64,000 nucleotides of DNA from Spiribacter sp. 2438 (GTDB taxonomy: Bacteria > Pseudomonadota > Gammaproteobacteria > Nitrococcales > Nitrococcaceae). A program made the translations under genes and the position numbers. Shown here in pieces: positions 47,984-61,326 of the stretch. The stretch lies in the NCBI RefSeq assembly GCF_009676705.1, contig NZ_CP046046.1, positions 1,178,001 to 1,242,000 on the forward strand, in the 5' to 3' direction. Position 1 is the stretch's first letter, and every line of letters begins with the position of its first letter. Under the pieces are notes generated by a model. The model did not search any database. It saw only the letters and a program-made list of their open reading frames with translations, and was not told the DNA's origin.

Positions 47984-51629
<3,646 letters not shown>

Positions 51630-51656
51630 GGTGATTCCTCCGTGACGCAAGGTTCC

Positions 51657-51675
51657 CCCGCCAGTCACTGGCGGG
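51657..51675 (-). promoter_or_regulatory. Hairpin between glycine riboswitch and dadA
   Basis: CCCGCCAG-TGA-CTGGCGGG in the dadA leader, 28 nt before the start codon. No T-run follows, so a simple terminator is unlikely. It may be part of the riboswitch expression platform or help expose the ribosome site. Confidence 0.5.
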
Positions 51676-51739
51676 CATGGTCCCCTCTGTCGCGAAGTCC
51701 CGGCGCGGTGGCCGGAGCCATGCTTCAGATTGTCAAACC

Positions 51740-51820
51740 CGACGCGGTCCTTTTGCCTGAGAGATTCCGGGGGGTTGCTCCTTCGGCGCCAGCATTACGC
51801 TGATCTCTCCCGCGTAGGCG
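51740..51820 (-). ncRNA. Glycine riboswitch (single aptamer) upstream of dadA
   Basis: On the minus strand the leader contains, in order, the conserved glycine-aptamer blocks GCGGGAGAG, GCCGAAGGAGCAA and TCTCAGGCAAAAGGACCGC, with P1 formed by ACGCGG/CCGCGT. Only one full aptamer is visible. A downstream GACAGAGGGG (about 51683-51692) resembles the tail of a second aptamer and may be the ghost helix described for single-aptamer versions. It controls the dadA-like gene that follows. No gcv genes are present in the window. Confidence 0.88.
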
Positions 51821-51882
51821 AACACTTGGATTGTGGAGGCATCGCTGCCGGTGTGCAAGGGCGATGCCCGGTCACCTGGACT

Positions 51883-52860
51883 TCATTCCCCCGAGCTCGC
51901 CCCCATGACGTGATCCAGCTCCACGCCGGACAGCACCACATGGCTGGCCCGCCCCACAATCAGCGGGTCCGGACGGCCGACAATGCGGGGGTCCTTGTCT
52001 GGATAGTCGATGGTGGAGAGAAAATGCTTCATGCACTCCAGCCGAGCCCGCTTCTTGTCCTTGGACTTGATCACTGTCCATGGCGCATCGGCGGTGTCGG
52101 TGTAGAAGAACATGGCTTCCTTGGCCTGGGTGTACTCGTCCCACTTGCCCAGGCTCTCCTTATCGATGGGAGAGAGCTTCCAGCGTTTCAGGGGATCGGT
52201 TTCCCGTGAACTGAACCGGCGGCGCTGCTCCTCGGGAGTGACGGAAAACCAGTACTTGTAGAACCGGATACCGGAACGGACCAGCATGCGCTCGAACTCC
52301 GGCGCCTGGCGCATGAACTCGAGGTAGTCCGTTGGCGTACAGAAACCCATGACCCGCTCGACACCGGCGCGGTTGTACCAGGAGCGGTCATAGAAGACCA
52401 TTTCGCCAAGGGTCGGCAGGTGCTCAATATAACGCTGGAAATACCACTGCCCCAGCTCTTTTTCGGACGGTTTGTTGAGCGCCACCACCCGGGCAAATCG
52501 CGGGTTGAGATGCTCGTTGAACCGCTTGATGGTGCCGCCCTTGCCCGCGGCATCGCGCCCCTCGAAAAGAAACACAAACCGCTCACCGGTCTCGATGGCC
52601 CATTTCTGCACCTTCAGCAGTTCCGCCTGCAGGAGCGCCTTCTCGGCCTCATAGCTCTTACGCGCCATCTTGTAGCGATAGGGATAGCGTTCCGACTCGA
52701 AGAAGCGGCGAATCTCATCGGCCGTCAACGTGTCGGGATCAGGCCGCCAGGCGTAGTTCTTGGGCGCTTTTTTCAGGCGTGGACCCGGATCGGATTCCGG
52801 TGCTTCCGCCAGCGCCTTCATGGCGTCAACGGCTCGTGGCGCAGGGGCTCGGCTGGACAT
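51883..52860 (-). CDS. ppk2: Polyphosphate kinase 2
   Basis: A 325-residue PPK2-family kinase that uses polyphosphate to phosphorylate nucleotides. Walker A is FEGRDAAGKGGTIKRF, Walker B is FYDRSWYNRAGVERVMGF, and the lid motif is RFSSRETDPLKRWKLSPID. A single PPK2 domain with a ~70-residue N-terminal part suggests class I (NDP substrate). ATG 52860 is preceded by GGAGA; the frame extends to 52962. Lies downstream of the tRNA-Ser array in the same direction. Confidence 0.93.
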   Translation of the reverse strand: MSSRAPAPRAVDAMKALAEAPESDPGPRLKKAPKNYAWRPDPDTLTADEIRRFFESERYPYRYKMARKSYEAEKALLQAELLKVQKWAIETGERFVFLFEGRDAAGKGGTIKRFNEHLNPRFARVVALNKPSEKELGQWYFQRYIEHLPTLGEMVFYDRSWYNRAGVERVMGFCTPTDYLEFMRQAPEFERMLVRSGIRFYKYWFSVTPEEQRRRFSSRETDPLKRWKLSPIDKESLGKWDEYTQAKEAMFFYTDTADAPWTVIKSKDKKRARLECMKHFLSTIDYPDKDPRIVGRPDPLIVGRASHVVLSGVELDHVMGASSGE

Positions 52861-52976
52861 GATTTTCTCCAAATTCGGGGCAAACGCCCACTCCACCACC
52901 TTACCCGGTTGCTCGGGGCGACCCTTGATGTCGATCAAATCGGGGGGAGTTCGCGCCCACAACCCAGCTGATCAGC

Positions 52977-53427
52977 TCGAACCCGTCATCTGTTCGTACC
53001 GAGGGTTCGAACCCCTACATGCTTCAACCAATAAAAAAGGGGCCGATGGCCCCTCTTTCATTGGTTGGCGGAGAGGGAGGGATTGATTCGGCCCTACGGG
53101 CCTCACCCTTCGGGCGCGTCGCTGCGCTCCGCGTCCCAATCGCCATCCGGCGATTGGTCGAACCCGTCATCTGTTCGTACCGAGGGTTCGAACCCCGGCA
53201 TGCTTCAACCAATAAAAAAGGGGCCGATGGCCCCTCTTTCATTGGTTGGCGGAGAGGGAGGGATTGATTCGGCCCTACGGGCCTCACCCTTCGGGCGCGT
53301 CGCTGCGCTCCGCGTCCCAATCGCCATCCGGCGATTGGTCGAACCCGTCATCTGTTCGTACCGAGGGTTCGAACCCCGGCATGCTTCAACCAATAAAAAA
53401 GGGGCCGATGGCCCCTCTTTCATTGGT
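52977..53427 (-). repeat. Tandem 181-bp repeat array following tRNA-Ser, with embedded tRNA 3' ends
   Basis: Between ppk2 and tRNA-Ser lie about 2.5 units with an exact 181-bp period; terminator arms start at 53039, 53220 and 53401. Each unit holds, on the minus strand: the last 19 nt of tRNA-Ser including CCA (copies at 53066-53084 and 53247-53265), a symmetric hairpin terminator (53026-53066, 53207-53247, 53388-53428), an inverted copy of the tRNA's T-arm side (17 nt identical), and a GC-rich core with GGCCC-TAC-GGGCC and an AATCGCC/GGCGATT hairpin. Copies are nearly identical; the outermost differs by 2 nt (CTA for CGG). The layout recalls the E. coli tyrT/rtT repeats. No protein-coding gene is supported here. 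Confidence 0.85.
53388..53427 (-). terminator. tRNA-Ser terminator
   Basis: Directly after the encoded CCA, AACCAAT then GGGGCC-ATC-GGCCCC and six T. Outer AACCAAT/ATTGGTT arms extend the stem, so it works on both strands. Identical hairpins recur in each repeat unit. Confidence 0.85.
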
Positions 53428-53518
<91 letters not shown>

Positions 53519-57731: not shown

Positions 57732-58187
57732 GCCGGCTTTTTAATAGATGGCGCGCCCGGGAGGATTAGCTCGGCCCTCCGGGCCTCGTGCTCTCGCGCT
57801 GCGCGCTCGGGTCGAACCCCTATTCGCTTGTTGGGGGTTCGAACCCTCCTCCGGGTATCTATTAAAAAACCGGCTTGCAGCCGGCTTTTTAATAGATGGC
57901 GCGCCCGGGAGGATTAGCTCGGCCCTCCGGGCCTCGTGCTCTCGCGCTGCGCGCTCGGGTCGAACCCCTATTCGCTTGTTGGGGGTTCGAACCCTCCTCC
58001 GGGTATCTATTAAAAACCGGCTTGCAGTACTTTTAATAGATGGCGCGCCCGGAGGATTAGCTCGGCCCTCCGGGCCTCGTGCTCTCGCGCTGCGCGCTCG
58101 GGTCGAACCCCTATTCGCTTGTTGGGGGTTCGAACCCTCCTCCGGGTATCTATTAAAAAACCGGCTTGCAGCCGGCTTTTTAATAGA
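57732..58187 (-). repeat. Tandem 144-148-bp repeat array following tRNA-Arg, with embedded tRNA 3' ends
   Basis: Three units lie between tRNA-Arg and the DUF427 gene, with periods of 148, 144 and 147 bp. Each carries the last 19 nt of tRNA-Arg with CCA (57749-57767, 57897-57915; 58041-58058 lacks one G), a symmetric hairpin ATCTATTAAAAA/CCGGCT...AGCCGG/TTTTTAATAGAT (57857-57897, 58148-58188; the one at 58005-58041 is decayed), an inverted copy of the T-arm side (14 nt identical), and a core with GGCCC-TCC-GGGCC and a GCGCGCAGCGC stretch. The core resembles that of the tRNA-Ser array. Apparent reading frames across it are repeat translations. Confidence 0.85.
58148..58187 (-). terminator. tRNA-Arg terminator
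   Basis: Directly after CCA: ATCTATTAAAAA, C, GCCGGCT-like stem (AGCCGG pairing with CCGGCT around a TGC/GCA loop) and six T. The outer AT-rich arms are also complementary, giving a symmetric 41-nt structure active on both strands. Confidence 0.85.
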
Positions 58188-58264
58188 TGGCGCGCCCGGG
58201 AGGATTCGAACCCCCAACCTCCTGATCCGTAGTCAGGTGCTCTATCCAGTTGAGCTACAGGCGC
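58188..58264 (-). tRNA. tRNA-Arg (anticodon ACG)
   Basis: A 77-nt class I tRNA. Acceptor GCGCCTG/CGGGCGC (one T-G pair), D-arm with TAGCTCAACTGGATAGAGCA, anticodon stem CCTGA/TCAGG around CTACGGA (anticodon ACG, A34 usually edited to inosine), variable loop, and T-arm GGGGGTTCGAATCCTCC. Discriminator G73 and CCA are encoded. Transcribed leftward into the array. Confidence 0.95.
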
Positions 58265-58355
58265 TTTGCGAGGAGCGCGAATTATGGGGGCTTTGTAGAT
58301 GGTGGTCAAGCGGATACCCTGTCCACAGCAACATCCCCAACCGCGTGCGGAATTG

Positions 58356-59033
58356 ATGGACATGGAGAAATTGTTATATTATTACACTAGAAATTTCGCA
58401 CTGGGCCTCGCTCTGGGAATCAGCGTGTTGGCGGGTCAGGCCGCTGCTCATCCCCATGGCTGGATCGACGTACGAGTCAACGTGGTCGTCGACGACGAAG
58501 AGCGTCTGGTGGCCTTCGAGCAGCAGTGGAAAATGGATCCGTTCTACAGCATCGCTCTGATTGAAGAACTCGAGCTGCTGGCTCCGGACAACCGCGATGA
58601 GGCGCTGGCCCTGATGGCCGAAGAAATGAAGATCAACCTGGCGCCGGAAGACTTCTTTACGGAAATCCGAATCGATGATGAATCGATGGCCTTCGACGCA
58701 GTGGAAACCTACCGACTCACGGCGACCGACTCCGAAGTGACCCTGCATTTCACCCTGCCTCTGGCCTCGCCACCGGTCATCACCGGCCAACCCGTGGTCT
58801 ACAAAATCTTCGAGCCCACCTATTTTCTCGAGATGCTCCACGACGCCGATCGCGACGGGCCACTTCCCGACTCCCTGACCGTGCAGGGCCCTCTGGAGTG
58901 TGAGACGGATATCGAGGCCGCCGACCCGGATCCGAAACTCGTCATGGAGGCCGCCCGAATCCCGATTGATGAAGAGGCCGAGTACGGCCTGGGACGTCAC
59001 TTTGCCGAGACGGTGACCATTCAATGCCGATAG
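58356..59033 (+). CDS. DUF1007 family periplasmic protein
   Basis: A ~225-residue exported protein: basic start, hydrophobic signal (FALGLALGISVLAGQAAA), then the DUF1007 opening HPHGWIDVRVNVVVDDEERLVAFEQQWKMDPFYS. Conserved His-Pro-His at the mature N-terminus could bind metal. DUF1007 proteins usually accompany NicO-type metal permeases, as here, where the next gene overlaps by 10 nt. Starts at 58356 or 58362 are both possible. A periplasmic metal-handling role is inferred from this pairing. Confidence 0.85.
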   Translation: MDMEKLLYYYTRNFALGLALGISVLAGQAAAHPHGWIDVRVNVVVDDEERLVAFEQQWKMDPFYSIALIEELELLAPDNRDEALALMAEEMKINLAPEDFFTEIRIDDESMAFDAVETYRLTATDSEVTLHFTLPLASPPVITGQPVVYKIFEPTYFLEMLHDADRDGPLPDSLTVQGPLECETDIEAADPDPKLVMEAARIPIDEEAEYGLGRHFAETVTIQCR

Positions 59034-60033: not shown

Positions 60034-61326
60034 ATGCTTGAACGCTATTTCGGACTGGCGGAAACCGGCACCAACCTGCGACAGGAGGTTCTGGCCGGTC
60101 TCACCACCTTTCTCACCATGGCCTATATCGTCGTGGTTAACCCGAGCATCCTCTCCGACGCCGGCATGGAATGGGGAGCGGTTTTCGTGGCGACCTGCCT
60201 GGCGGCGGCACTGGGCTGCCTCATCATGGGGTTGTATGCCAACTACCCGTTTGGCCTGGCTCCCGGCATGGGTTTGAATGCCTACTTCACCTACGGCGTG
60301 GTGCTCGGCATGGGCATTGCATGGCCGACGGCACTCGGGGCGGTGTTCGTCTCAGGCATCCTATTTTTGATCATCTCGCTGTTGCCCATCCGCGAATGGA
60401 TCATTAATGCCATTCCCCTTTCCCTGAAAATGGCGATCTCGGCAGGGATCGGTTTTTTCCTGGCCATTATCGCGCTGAAGAACGCCGGAGTCGTGGTGGA
60501 GAGCCAGGCCACCCTGGTGACCCTGGGCGATCTGTCAGCTCCACCGACCCTGCTCGCGTTGCTCGGCTTTTTCATCATGATCGGACTCAGCCACCACCGG
60601 ATTCCGGGGGCCGTGCTCATCGGCATTATTGCGGTCAGCTTGATTGGCGTGCCTTTTGGCGTCGCCGAGTTCGACGGCGTGGTGTCGCTGCCGCCGGATC
60701 CGAGCGCCACTTTCCTGGCCATGGACATCGTCGGAGCACTTGAGCTGGGGCTCATCACCGTGGTGCTGGTGTTCCTGTTCATCGACCTGTTTGACAGTTC
60801 CGGCACGCTGGTGGGCCTGTCTCACCGCGCCGGATTCCTGGACAGTGAAGGGCGGCTCGGTCGCCTGCGCAGCGCCCTGGTGGCCGACTCCGGCGCCACC
60901 ATCGGCGGCGCGGCGCTGGGCACCTCCACTACCACCACCTACATTGAGAGTGCGGCGGGCGTGAACGCTGGCGGTCGGACGGGCCTCACCGCGGTGGTGA
61001 TTGCGGCGATGTTCCTGGTGTCCCTGTTTTTCCTGCCCGTGGTCAGCGCCATCCCGGCCTATGCCACCGCCCCCGCCCTGCTGTTTGTCGCGTGCATGAT
61101 GGCCCGCGGCCTGGCCGAGCTTCAGTGGGATGACATCACCGACACGGCACCGGCGGTGGTGACGGCCATCGCCATGCCGCTCACCTTTTCCATTGCCGAC
61201 GGCATGGGTCTCGGTTTCATCACTTACGTGGCTGGCAAGACCCTGGCGGGTCGAGCTCGCGAGGTTCATGTCGCCGTGTGGGTGATAGCGGTGCTGTTCG
61301 CCCTGCGATTCCTGTTCATCCATTGA
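60034..61326 (+). CDS. NCS2-family purine permease (AzgA-like)
   Basis: A 430-residue, 12-14-helix transporter of the AzgA group, which imports hypoxanthine, guanine or adenine with protons. Markers are TNLRQEVLAGLTTFLTMAYIVVVNPSIL, GLYANYPFGLAPGMGLNAYFTYGVV, LFIDLFDSSGTLVGLSHRAGFLD and GTSTTTTYIESAAGVNAGGRTGLTAVV. Start ATG 60034 after an A-rich leader with GGGGGCAG. It stands alone; no purine catabolic genes are adjacent. Convergent with the metal ABC operon (9 bp between stops). Confidence 0.92.
   Translation: MLERYFGLAETGTNLRQEVLAGLTTFLTMAYIVVVNPSILSDAGMEWGAVFVATCLAAALGCLIMGLYANYPFGLAPGMGLNAYFTYGVVLGMGIAWPTALGAVFVSGILFLIISLLPIREWIINAIPLSLKMAISAGIGFFLAIIALKNAGVVVESQATLVTLGDLSAPPTLLALLGFFIMIGLSHHRIPGAVLIGIIAVSLIGVPFGVAEFDGVVSLPPDPSATFLAMDIVGALELGLITVVLVFLFIDLFDSSGTLVGLSHRAGFLDSEGRLGRLRSALVADSGATIGGAALGTSTTTTYIESAAGVNAGGRTGLTAVVIAAMFLVSLFFLPVVSAIPAYATAPALLFVACMMARGLAELQWDDITDTAPAVVTAIAMPLTFSIADGMGLGFITYVAGKTLAGRAREVHVAVWVIAVLFALRFLFIH

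Follow-up and report, generated by a model that had tools for sequence, protein, structure and literature searches.

Downstream of tRNA-Arg(ACG) and tRNA-Ser(GGA) in Spiribacter sp. 2438 are two arrays of tandem tRNA-linked repeats (TLRs; Rfam RF00391, RtT), a known and widespread family, and most Ser and Arg units in this lineage contain an inverted copy that is antisense to about positions 46-63 of the unit's own tRNA and covaries with it. The arrays are not new in kind; what looks new is the covarying antisense to the own tRNA, for which no description was found in the literature searched, for the most part literature other than subscription papers. The window is the whole stretch of DNA that was analysed (64,000 nt), and coordinates refer to it unless the genome is named.

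The first array sits 3' of tRNA-Arg(ACG) with a unit spacing of 148, 144 and 147 nt, and is recognized as a tandem repeat by TRF (score 901, 95% matches; Table 1). The initial annotation had described units of 144-148 bp, each with the 19-nt tRNA end starting at position 58, a terminator and an inverted T-arm copy, and all of these elements were confirmed. In the direction of the tRNA, the Arg units open with a hairpin and T-run, followed by the antisense segment, which is complementary at 19/20 bases to tRNA positions 46-65. After a short spacer comes GGGGTTCGA, which directly repeats the 5' half of the T-arm; GC-rich hairpins and finally the 19-nt tail complete the unit. In units 1 and 3 the leading hairpin forms a near-perfect inverted repeat with a T-run, the inverted T-arm copies in the three units are 20 nt long with 95% identity, and the tail copies begin at position 58, G57 being included in none of them. 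The decay that had been noticed in this array is real: the tail copy of unit 1 (58041-58058) has lost one base and is 18 nt long, and the hairpin of unit 2 is broken. Open reading frames cross the array on both strands (57748-58356, plus; 57741-58217, minus); they are largely made of repeat sequence and likely spurious.

Table 1. Features of the Arg and Ser arrays in the window (R1, unit model described in the text).
Feature	Position	Strand	Evidence
tRNA-Arg(ACG)	58188-58264	minus	ARAGORN; Rfam tRNA 65.9 bits
Final 19 nt of tRNA-Arg(ACG) (tRNA positions 58-76)	58188-58206	minus	
Arg unit 1, 147 nt: intact terminator-like hairpin, antisense segment, insert hairpins, tail copy	58041-58187	minus	R1 38.6 bits
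Antisense segment of Arg unit 1, complementary at 19/20 to tRNA-Arg 58199-58218 (positions 46-65)	58121-58140	minus	
Arg unit 2, 144 nt: broken terminator hairpin, exact 19-nt tail copy at 57897-57915	57897-58040	minus	R1 40.7 bits
Antisense segment of Arg unit 2	57978-57997	minus	
Arg unit 3, 148 nt: intact terminator hairpin, exact tail copy at 57749-57767	57749-57896	minus	R1 40.7 bits
Antisense segment of Arg unit 3	57830-57849	minus	
17-nt stub of a fourth Arg unit (half a terminator)	57732-57748	minus	
tRNA-Ser(GGA), final 19 nt at 53428-53446	53428-53518	minus	
Ser unit 1, 181 nt: tail copy 53247-53265, antisense 53357-53377	53247-53427	minus	R1 118.5 bits
Ser unit 2, 181 nt, identical to Ser unit 1: tail copy 53066-53084, antisense 53176-53196	53066-53246	minus	R1 118.5 bits
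Partial third Ser unit: terminator and antisense 52995-53016, no tail	52977-53065	minus	

That the same design recurs at an unrelated tRNA was borne out by the mapping of units, tails, hairpins and inverted T-arm copies at the Ser locus. The Ser array (52977-53446) follows the plan of the Arg array with its own 19-nt tail, the two loci being 4.7 kb apart; its partial third unit scores 24.2 bits with model R1 over 52837-53020, which is the level of a bare tRNA end. Nearby, a glycine riboswitch (51735-51822, minus strand; Rfam RF00504, 71.2 bits) is found upstream of a minus-strand open reading frame (50334-51668) for an FAD-dependent oxidoreductase (Pfam DAO). A tRNA-Ile called by ARAGORN at 60839-60937 (minus strand) is not found by the Rfam tRNA model and overlaps a long plus-strand open reading frame (60034-61326); it is probably a false call.

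A TLR is defined by a final 18-19 bp that repeat the end of the upstream tRNA or rRNA, and E. coli K-12 has 22 of them at ten loci, with one to five per locus (PMC8144298). The complete window units close with 18-19 nt that repeat the 3' end of the tRNA upstream, and tail copies, one to three each, follow 5 of the 43 tRNAs of the genome (Arg-CCG, Arg-ACG, Ser-UGA, Ser-CGA and Ser-GGA). With the RtT covariance model, all five complete window units gave full-length sub-threshold matches of 19.6-22.5 bits, and at E 5 the 5.5 kb searched held no other match. None of the units reached the gathering score of 45 bits; the assignment to TLRs is kept because this score is the detection threshold of a Tyr-type model and lies outside the TLR definition. 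Among 59 relatives, 39 match RtT at E 10 or better and 7 lie above the cut-off, and E. coli alone does so among 14 control genomes. Elsewhere in the Spiribacter sp. 2438 genome, a weak RtT match (genome positions 875013-875075, plus strand; 14.8 bits, E 3.7) lies away from the listed tRNAs. Sub-threshold matches to Rfam sX4 (L016, 1624-1784, and L006, 652-819, both minus strand) span a tRNA with a long variable arm (Ser, Tyr) and the start of the adjoining unit; a relation of sX4 to combined tRNA and TLR sequence is possible.

The training set of a second model, R1, comprised the cores of 25 Ser, Tyr and Gln units, among them sister Ser loci and one E. coli tyrV unit, with no Arg unit and none from Spiribacter sp. 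2438. It recovers all five complete window units, supporting their homology: the Ser units score 118.5 bits and the Arg units 38.6-40.7 bits, against 24.2 bits for the tRNA-Ser gene alone. Other Arg units outside the training set (L034, L026, L038 and L191) score 26.7-78.7 bits; in E. coli the values are 78-81 bits for tyrV, but 16-28 for argVYZQ and 22 for rrnB, close to the 18-24 that a bare tRNA end receives. As to whether the Ser and Arg arrays are alike through tRNA sequence alone, a doubt that had been raised at the outset, R1 places the Arg units above a bare tRNA, but an insert-only nhmmer profile lacking T-arm and tail, which finds the Ser units at 3.7e-11, gives a non-significant E of 1.5 for the Arg units. 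The score of the direct alignment of Ser and Arg inserts was matched by 3 of 2000 shuffles. As judged from these sequence comparisons, membership of the Arg array is indicated by its architecture, R1 and its relatives, and less by the short insert.

The initial annotation had seen two independent breaks at tRNA position 58 as a sign of a specific mechanism. Independence of the two breaks is not supported, since a 19-nt tail is standard throughout TLR/RtT, from E. coli tyrV to species that have it after tRNAs for Tyr, Arg, Ser, Gln, Glu, Thr, Asn and Asp; as both arrays belong to this family, their shared break point is inherited architecture. Like the E. coli K-12 TLR/RtT repeats of tyrT and tyrV, the window arrays consist of tandem units behind a tRNA, each closing with the tRNA's final 18-19 nt (in tyrV, exact copies of the 19-nt end occur at +160, +338 and +516), with conserved insert hairpins that carry CCCGNAGGG and with a variable number of units. 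Unlike tyrT and tyrV, the tRNAs here are Ser, Arg and, in two sister genomes, Gln.

Among the 258 tRNA genes that ARAGORN calls in six complete genomes of the genus (one call, Asp-ATC, is seemingly spurious), 21 have a tail copy, counted with at most 3 edits and within 600 nt of the tRNA; 3 of the 258 had less than 600 nt downstream, and matches with 4 edits and a Lys match with 3 edits 906 nt away are outside this count. The repeat is therefore not peculiar to the two window tRNAs, contrary to the refuting case in which all other tRNA genes of the clade would lack it. The argument against chance duplication is supported, and unit number varies between 0 and 3 tail copies per locus among these genomes, the variation for which a scan had been suggested. 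The 21 genes are orthologues of seven: Arg-ACG (4/6 genomes), Arg-CCG (1/6), Gln-CUG (2/6), Ser-CGA (5/6), Ser-GCU (2/6), Ser-GGA (3/5) and Ser-UGA (4/6). All 21 have the T-arm GGTTCGAATCC, which was not a requirement of the scan and occurs in 106/258 tRNAs overall. Several tRNA sites without a tail copy keep a terminator and antisense, i.e. a partial unit. One complete congener (G001) has no tRNA-Ser(GGA) among its 42 tRNAs; the gene is present in the five other complete genomes. As a control, tails were compared with the regions downstream of tRNAs for other amino acids in Spiribacter sp. 2438, by a regex that can miss inexact copies; 24 of 1724 pairs matched, 18 of them through neighbouring tRNA genes, five as 3-edit matches 490-810 nt off and one between the Asn tail and the Arg array's own tail copies (3 edits). 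Upstream of tRNAs, where 118 of the 258 have at least 500 nt of sequence, no tail copy was found.

On a wider scale, R1 at E 0.001 has matches in 103 of the 276 class genomes sampled (88/216 genera) and in 62 of 397 genomes of a phylum sample, 27 of the 62 lying outside the class and 23 of these in one family. A search of named genomes with a DNA pattern gave 99 stretches; represented among the 80 listed are Spiribacter, Thioalkalivibrio, Marinobacter, Xanthomonadaceae, Enterobacteriaceae and one member of the Mariprofundaceae. Of these 80, 58 adjoin a tRNA with a tail copy and 22 do not. The tRNAs at the listed loci are Tyr (30), Ser (21), Arg (15), Gln (5), Glu (4), Thr (2), Asn (1), Asp (1) and one unassigned, tallied per gene so that tandem tRNA genes count repeatedly. 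Another check, of 30 loci, found no full tRNA with a tail copy at 5 of them. Both the pattern and R1 contain the AATCC tail and hence cannot show which T-arms are excluded.

A list of 64 units, taken with a best-match regex and incomplete (it misses two of the three window Arg units, for example), underlies the antisense score, folds, unit identities, tRNA swaps and terminator counts. An inverted match to the 3' half of the own tRNA scores at least 10 in 59 of the 64 units, which partly reflects the generic palindrome of the T-arm. Scored against all foreign tRNAs, the own tRNA reaches 12 in 23/258 cases and the best of about 40 foreign tRNAs also in 23/258, with 27 against 53 at a score of 10 and 20 against 13 at a score of 14; this comparison is too blunt, the palindromic core of the T-arm being generic, and was therefore replaced by a fixed-offset test. 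Here the inverted T-loop sets the offset, and the next ten bases are compared with tRNA positions 44-53, counted back from the T-arm. Of 77 anchor matches 56 were kept, the other 21 belonging to tRNAs of other amino acids; the rows include partial units without a tail, exclude units without the inverted T-loop motif and, where related, are non-independent. In 38 Ser rows the own tRNA matches at 8.92 of 10 bases, compared with 6.60 for the other Ser isoacceptors of the same genome, and it is strictly best in 28 of 31 Ser rows. The 19-nt tail cannot explain this match to the own isoacceptor, because Ser-GGA, Ser-CGA and Ser-UGA tRNAs share one common tail in the six genomes.

With class loci added (apart from four that lack the anchor motif), none of 5000 permutations reaches the observed match over positions 44-53, either for Ser (35 distinct rows) or for Arg (11). 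For Arg positions 44-48 alone the test failed, 411/5000 permutations reaching the observed value. At the named loci, nine Ser rows have a mean of 8.0 against 7.19 when permuted (9/5000 reach it), and the antisense is absent from all five distinct Arg rows (4-5 of 10 bases paired). As an alternative partner of the antisense we considered the downstream strand of the unit itself, in the 42 Ser and 9 Arg distinct rows that also have the required downstream motif. At each of positions 47-50, 40/42 Ser rows pair with the tRNA and 8-18/42 with the downstream strand; at Arg positions 46-50 the figures are 9/9 and 0-5, and position 45 pairs in 2/9. The unit-internal strand was thus rejected as the partner beyond positions 51-53, since the tRNA pairs better.

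The antisense follows the tRNA and the insert does not do so comparably. Ser loci of the same genome that differ in their variable arms (8 pairs) have an insert identity of 0.84 and an antisense identity of 0.66, while for the same tRNA in different genomes (28 pairs) the values are 0.81 and 0.91. Unlike in E. coli tyrV, whose units match tRNA positions 47-68 at 19/22, mainly on the T-stem/acceptor side, the inverted copy here extends into the variable arm and follows the own tRNA. Most Tyr units lack the variable-arm part, as do E. coli argQ, argY and argZ and a few of the Ser units (Ser-CGA of Spiribacter sp. 2438, G005 Ser-UGA and G027 Ser-UGA), so it should be regarded as a variant and not as a function of all TLRs. 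In most of the RNAfold structures listed, the antisense pairs with tRNA positions of about 44-63 around the terminator hairpin, and the 5' acceptor strand of the tRNA often pairs with the unit's tail copy; these are equilibrium predictions, and a real tRNA folds during synthesis. When tRNAs were swapped within a genome, the own tRNA gave the largest folding gain in 5 of 7 units, foreign tRNAs likewise gaining folding energy; of the two exceptions, the G008 Ser-CGA unit prefers Ser-UGA, whose variable-arm bases are identical, and for the G008 Ser-GGA unit two other tRNAs do at least as well as its own.

The main rival to an antisense function is DNA-level gene conversion or template switching that repeatedly transfers the T-arm sequence to the inverted copy, in which case pairing of the RNAs would have no function. 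The near-palindromic T-arms would favor such copying, 21 of the 27 tail copies that the six genomes contain match the tRNA end exactly, so some copying keeps pace, and different Ser loci of G000, G001 and G011 have nearly the same inserts (0.95-0.99). However, conversion would have to act on a bounded inverted stretch, given the abrupt fall of Arg pairing between positions 46 and 45, and the Ser loci of G011 are alike in terminator (0.89) and insert (0.97) and unlike in antisense (0.60), whereas two locus pairs with the same variable arm have fully shared terminator and antisense. We regard this explanation as unlikely, though still to be reckoned with.

The RNA structure of the unit also appears to be conserved. 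In 25 aligned cores, 54 cells have two-sided paired changes compared with 22.5 in shuffled alignments (0/500 reach 54), and the covariation score is 0.323 against 0.152 shuffled (0/500 reach it) and 0.029-0.083 in slid versions; the count of cells, too, is higher than in every slid version. The number of pairs with a two-sided change, 7 of 19, shows no excess (shuffled mean 7.1; 353/500 reach it). Two-sided changes are confined to the two insert hairpins, the helix to the tail having none. As the sequences are related, this covariation is support for a conserved structure and not proof of it. First units are headed by a hairpin with a T-run in 25/33 Ser, 6/10 Arg, 3/3 Gln and 0/7 Tyr cases, so that most units here, unlike those of the Tyr type, begin with an intrinsic terminator. 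These terminators, and the common occurrence of partial units, would fit a neutral tandem duplication of tRNA end and terminator that is retained only as extra terminators; the covarying insert hairpins, the spread over the class, the antisense that tracks its own tRNA and the lack of a terminator in Tyr first units make this improbable.

Within an array, units are 95-100% identical in 10 of 11 pairs, the exception being the Arg array of G045 (60%). The end of the last unit differs from genome to genome: the Arg array stops with a 17-nt stub in G000 and with a whole terminator in G012, several Ser arrays keep a longer piece, and other arrays have no recognizable remnant. These observations agree with an inherited unit whose 3' end is fixed and which is gained and lost in tandem. 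tRNA 3' ends are classic att sites, and the exact boundary at position 58 (the base preceding 47 exact tail copies is C or T and never G57) could suggest that the unit is a tiny element inserted by a tyrosine recombinase at the tRNA 3' end with a 19-bp att duplication; but the junctions are not constant, tandem duplication with decay being favored because the last-unit ends differ among genomes, the interior of the unit is tailored to its tRNA, and Pfam finds no integrase domain in ten neighbouring proteins (50.3-59.0 kb), though an integrase might act from elsewhere, so site-specific integration is very improbable.

TLRs have been described since 1978 (Egan and Landy 1978, Bosl and Kersten 1991/1994 and Rudd 1999, as given in citing papers). 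In 2021, when three rRNA-linked ones were studied, TLRs were said to have had no known function until then; PMC8144298 states that tRNA-linked TLRs have no known function and that a stringent-response role of the tyrT repeat has since been retracted. The three, rrA, rrB and rrF, are located behind E. coli 5S rRNA between two terminators, are made by read-through, end in an 18-bp end copy at which the authors suggest cutting by RNase E, and bind Hfq and CsrA (PMC8144298). The window units resemble them in lying behind a terminator, in the end copy and in the same CCCGNAGGG insert motif (R1 gives 22 bits on the 5S-linked repeats), and the terminators at unit heads follow the same order as in rrA/rrB/rrF; the differences are the linkage to 5S rRNA and the binding of Hfq and CsrA described there (PMC8144298). 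The leuZ 3' external transcribed spacer is a tRNA-derived sponge that is processed from behind a tRNA and acts by pairing; compared by description, it differs from the window arrays in having other sRNAs as targets and in not being described there as a repeat (PMC8144298). RtT RNAs have been detected on northern blots in Actinobacillus (PMC4986893), and RtT RNA is reported to be higher in the cold in Thioalkalivibrio (PMC8092127).

The explanation that we prefer, and consider probable, is that the TLR arrays of the window are transcribed by read-through and give a processed RNA that could pair with the precursor of its own tRNA. RNA polymerase would pass the hairpin terminator behind the tRNA and transcribe one or more units, and the 19-nt tail copy, itself a tRNA 3' end, would be cut like one to release a unit-length RNA; by analogy with the E. 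coli precedents, this part is quite likely. The antisense would then pair with about positions 46-63 of the own tRNA, in the read-through precursor or in trans, and block the T-arm, so that maturation of the tRNA would be limited or diverted when termination fails. This step as a whole, pairing included, has a little under an even chance of being right. Recombination between tandem units would raise or lower the copy number and leave stubs and decayed units behind. A more specific proposal, which we put forward tentatively, is that the TLR units of this lineage are dedicated antisense regulators of their own tRNAs, isoacceptor by isoacceptor: the read-through RNA would pair over 18-20 nt with the variable arm and T-arm of that tRNA, and the tail copy would serve as an alternative 3' strand for the 5' acceptor strand of the tRNA.

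The R1 model widens the family to the class genomes and the additional genomes of the phylum sample in which it finds matches. The unit segment that tracks its own tRNA, also between Ser isoacceptors that share a 19-nt tail, is a concrete and testable target, and if the antisense reading is true, it would provide a function for tRNA-linked TLRs, namely tRNA-specific cis-antisense control of tRNA supply.
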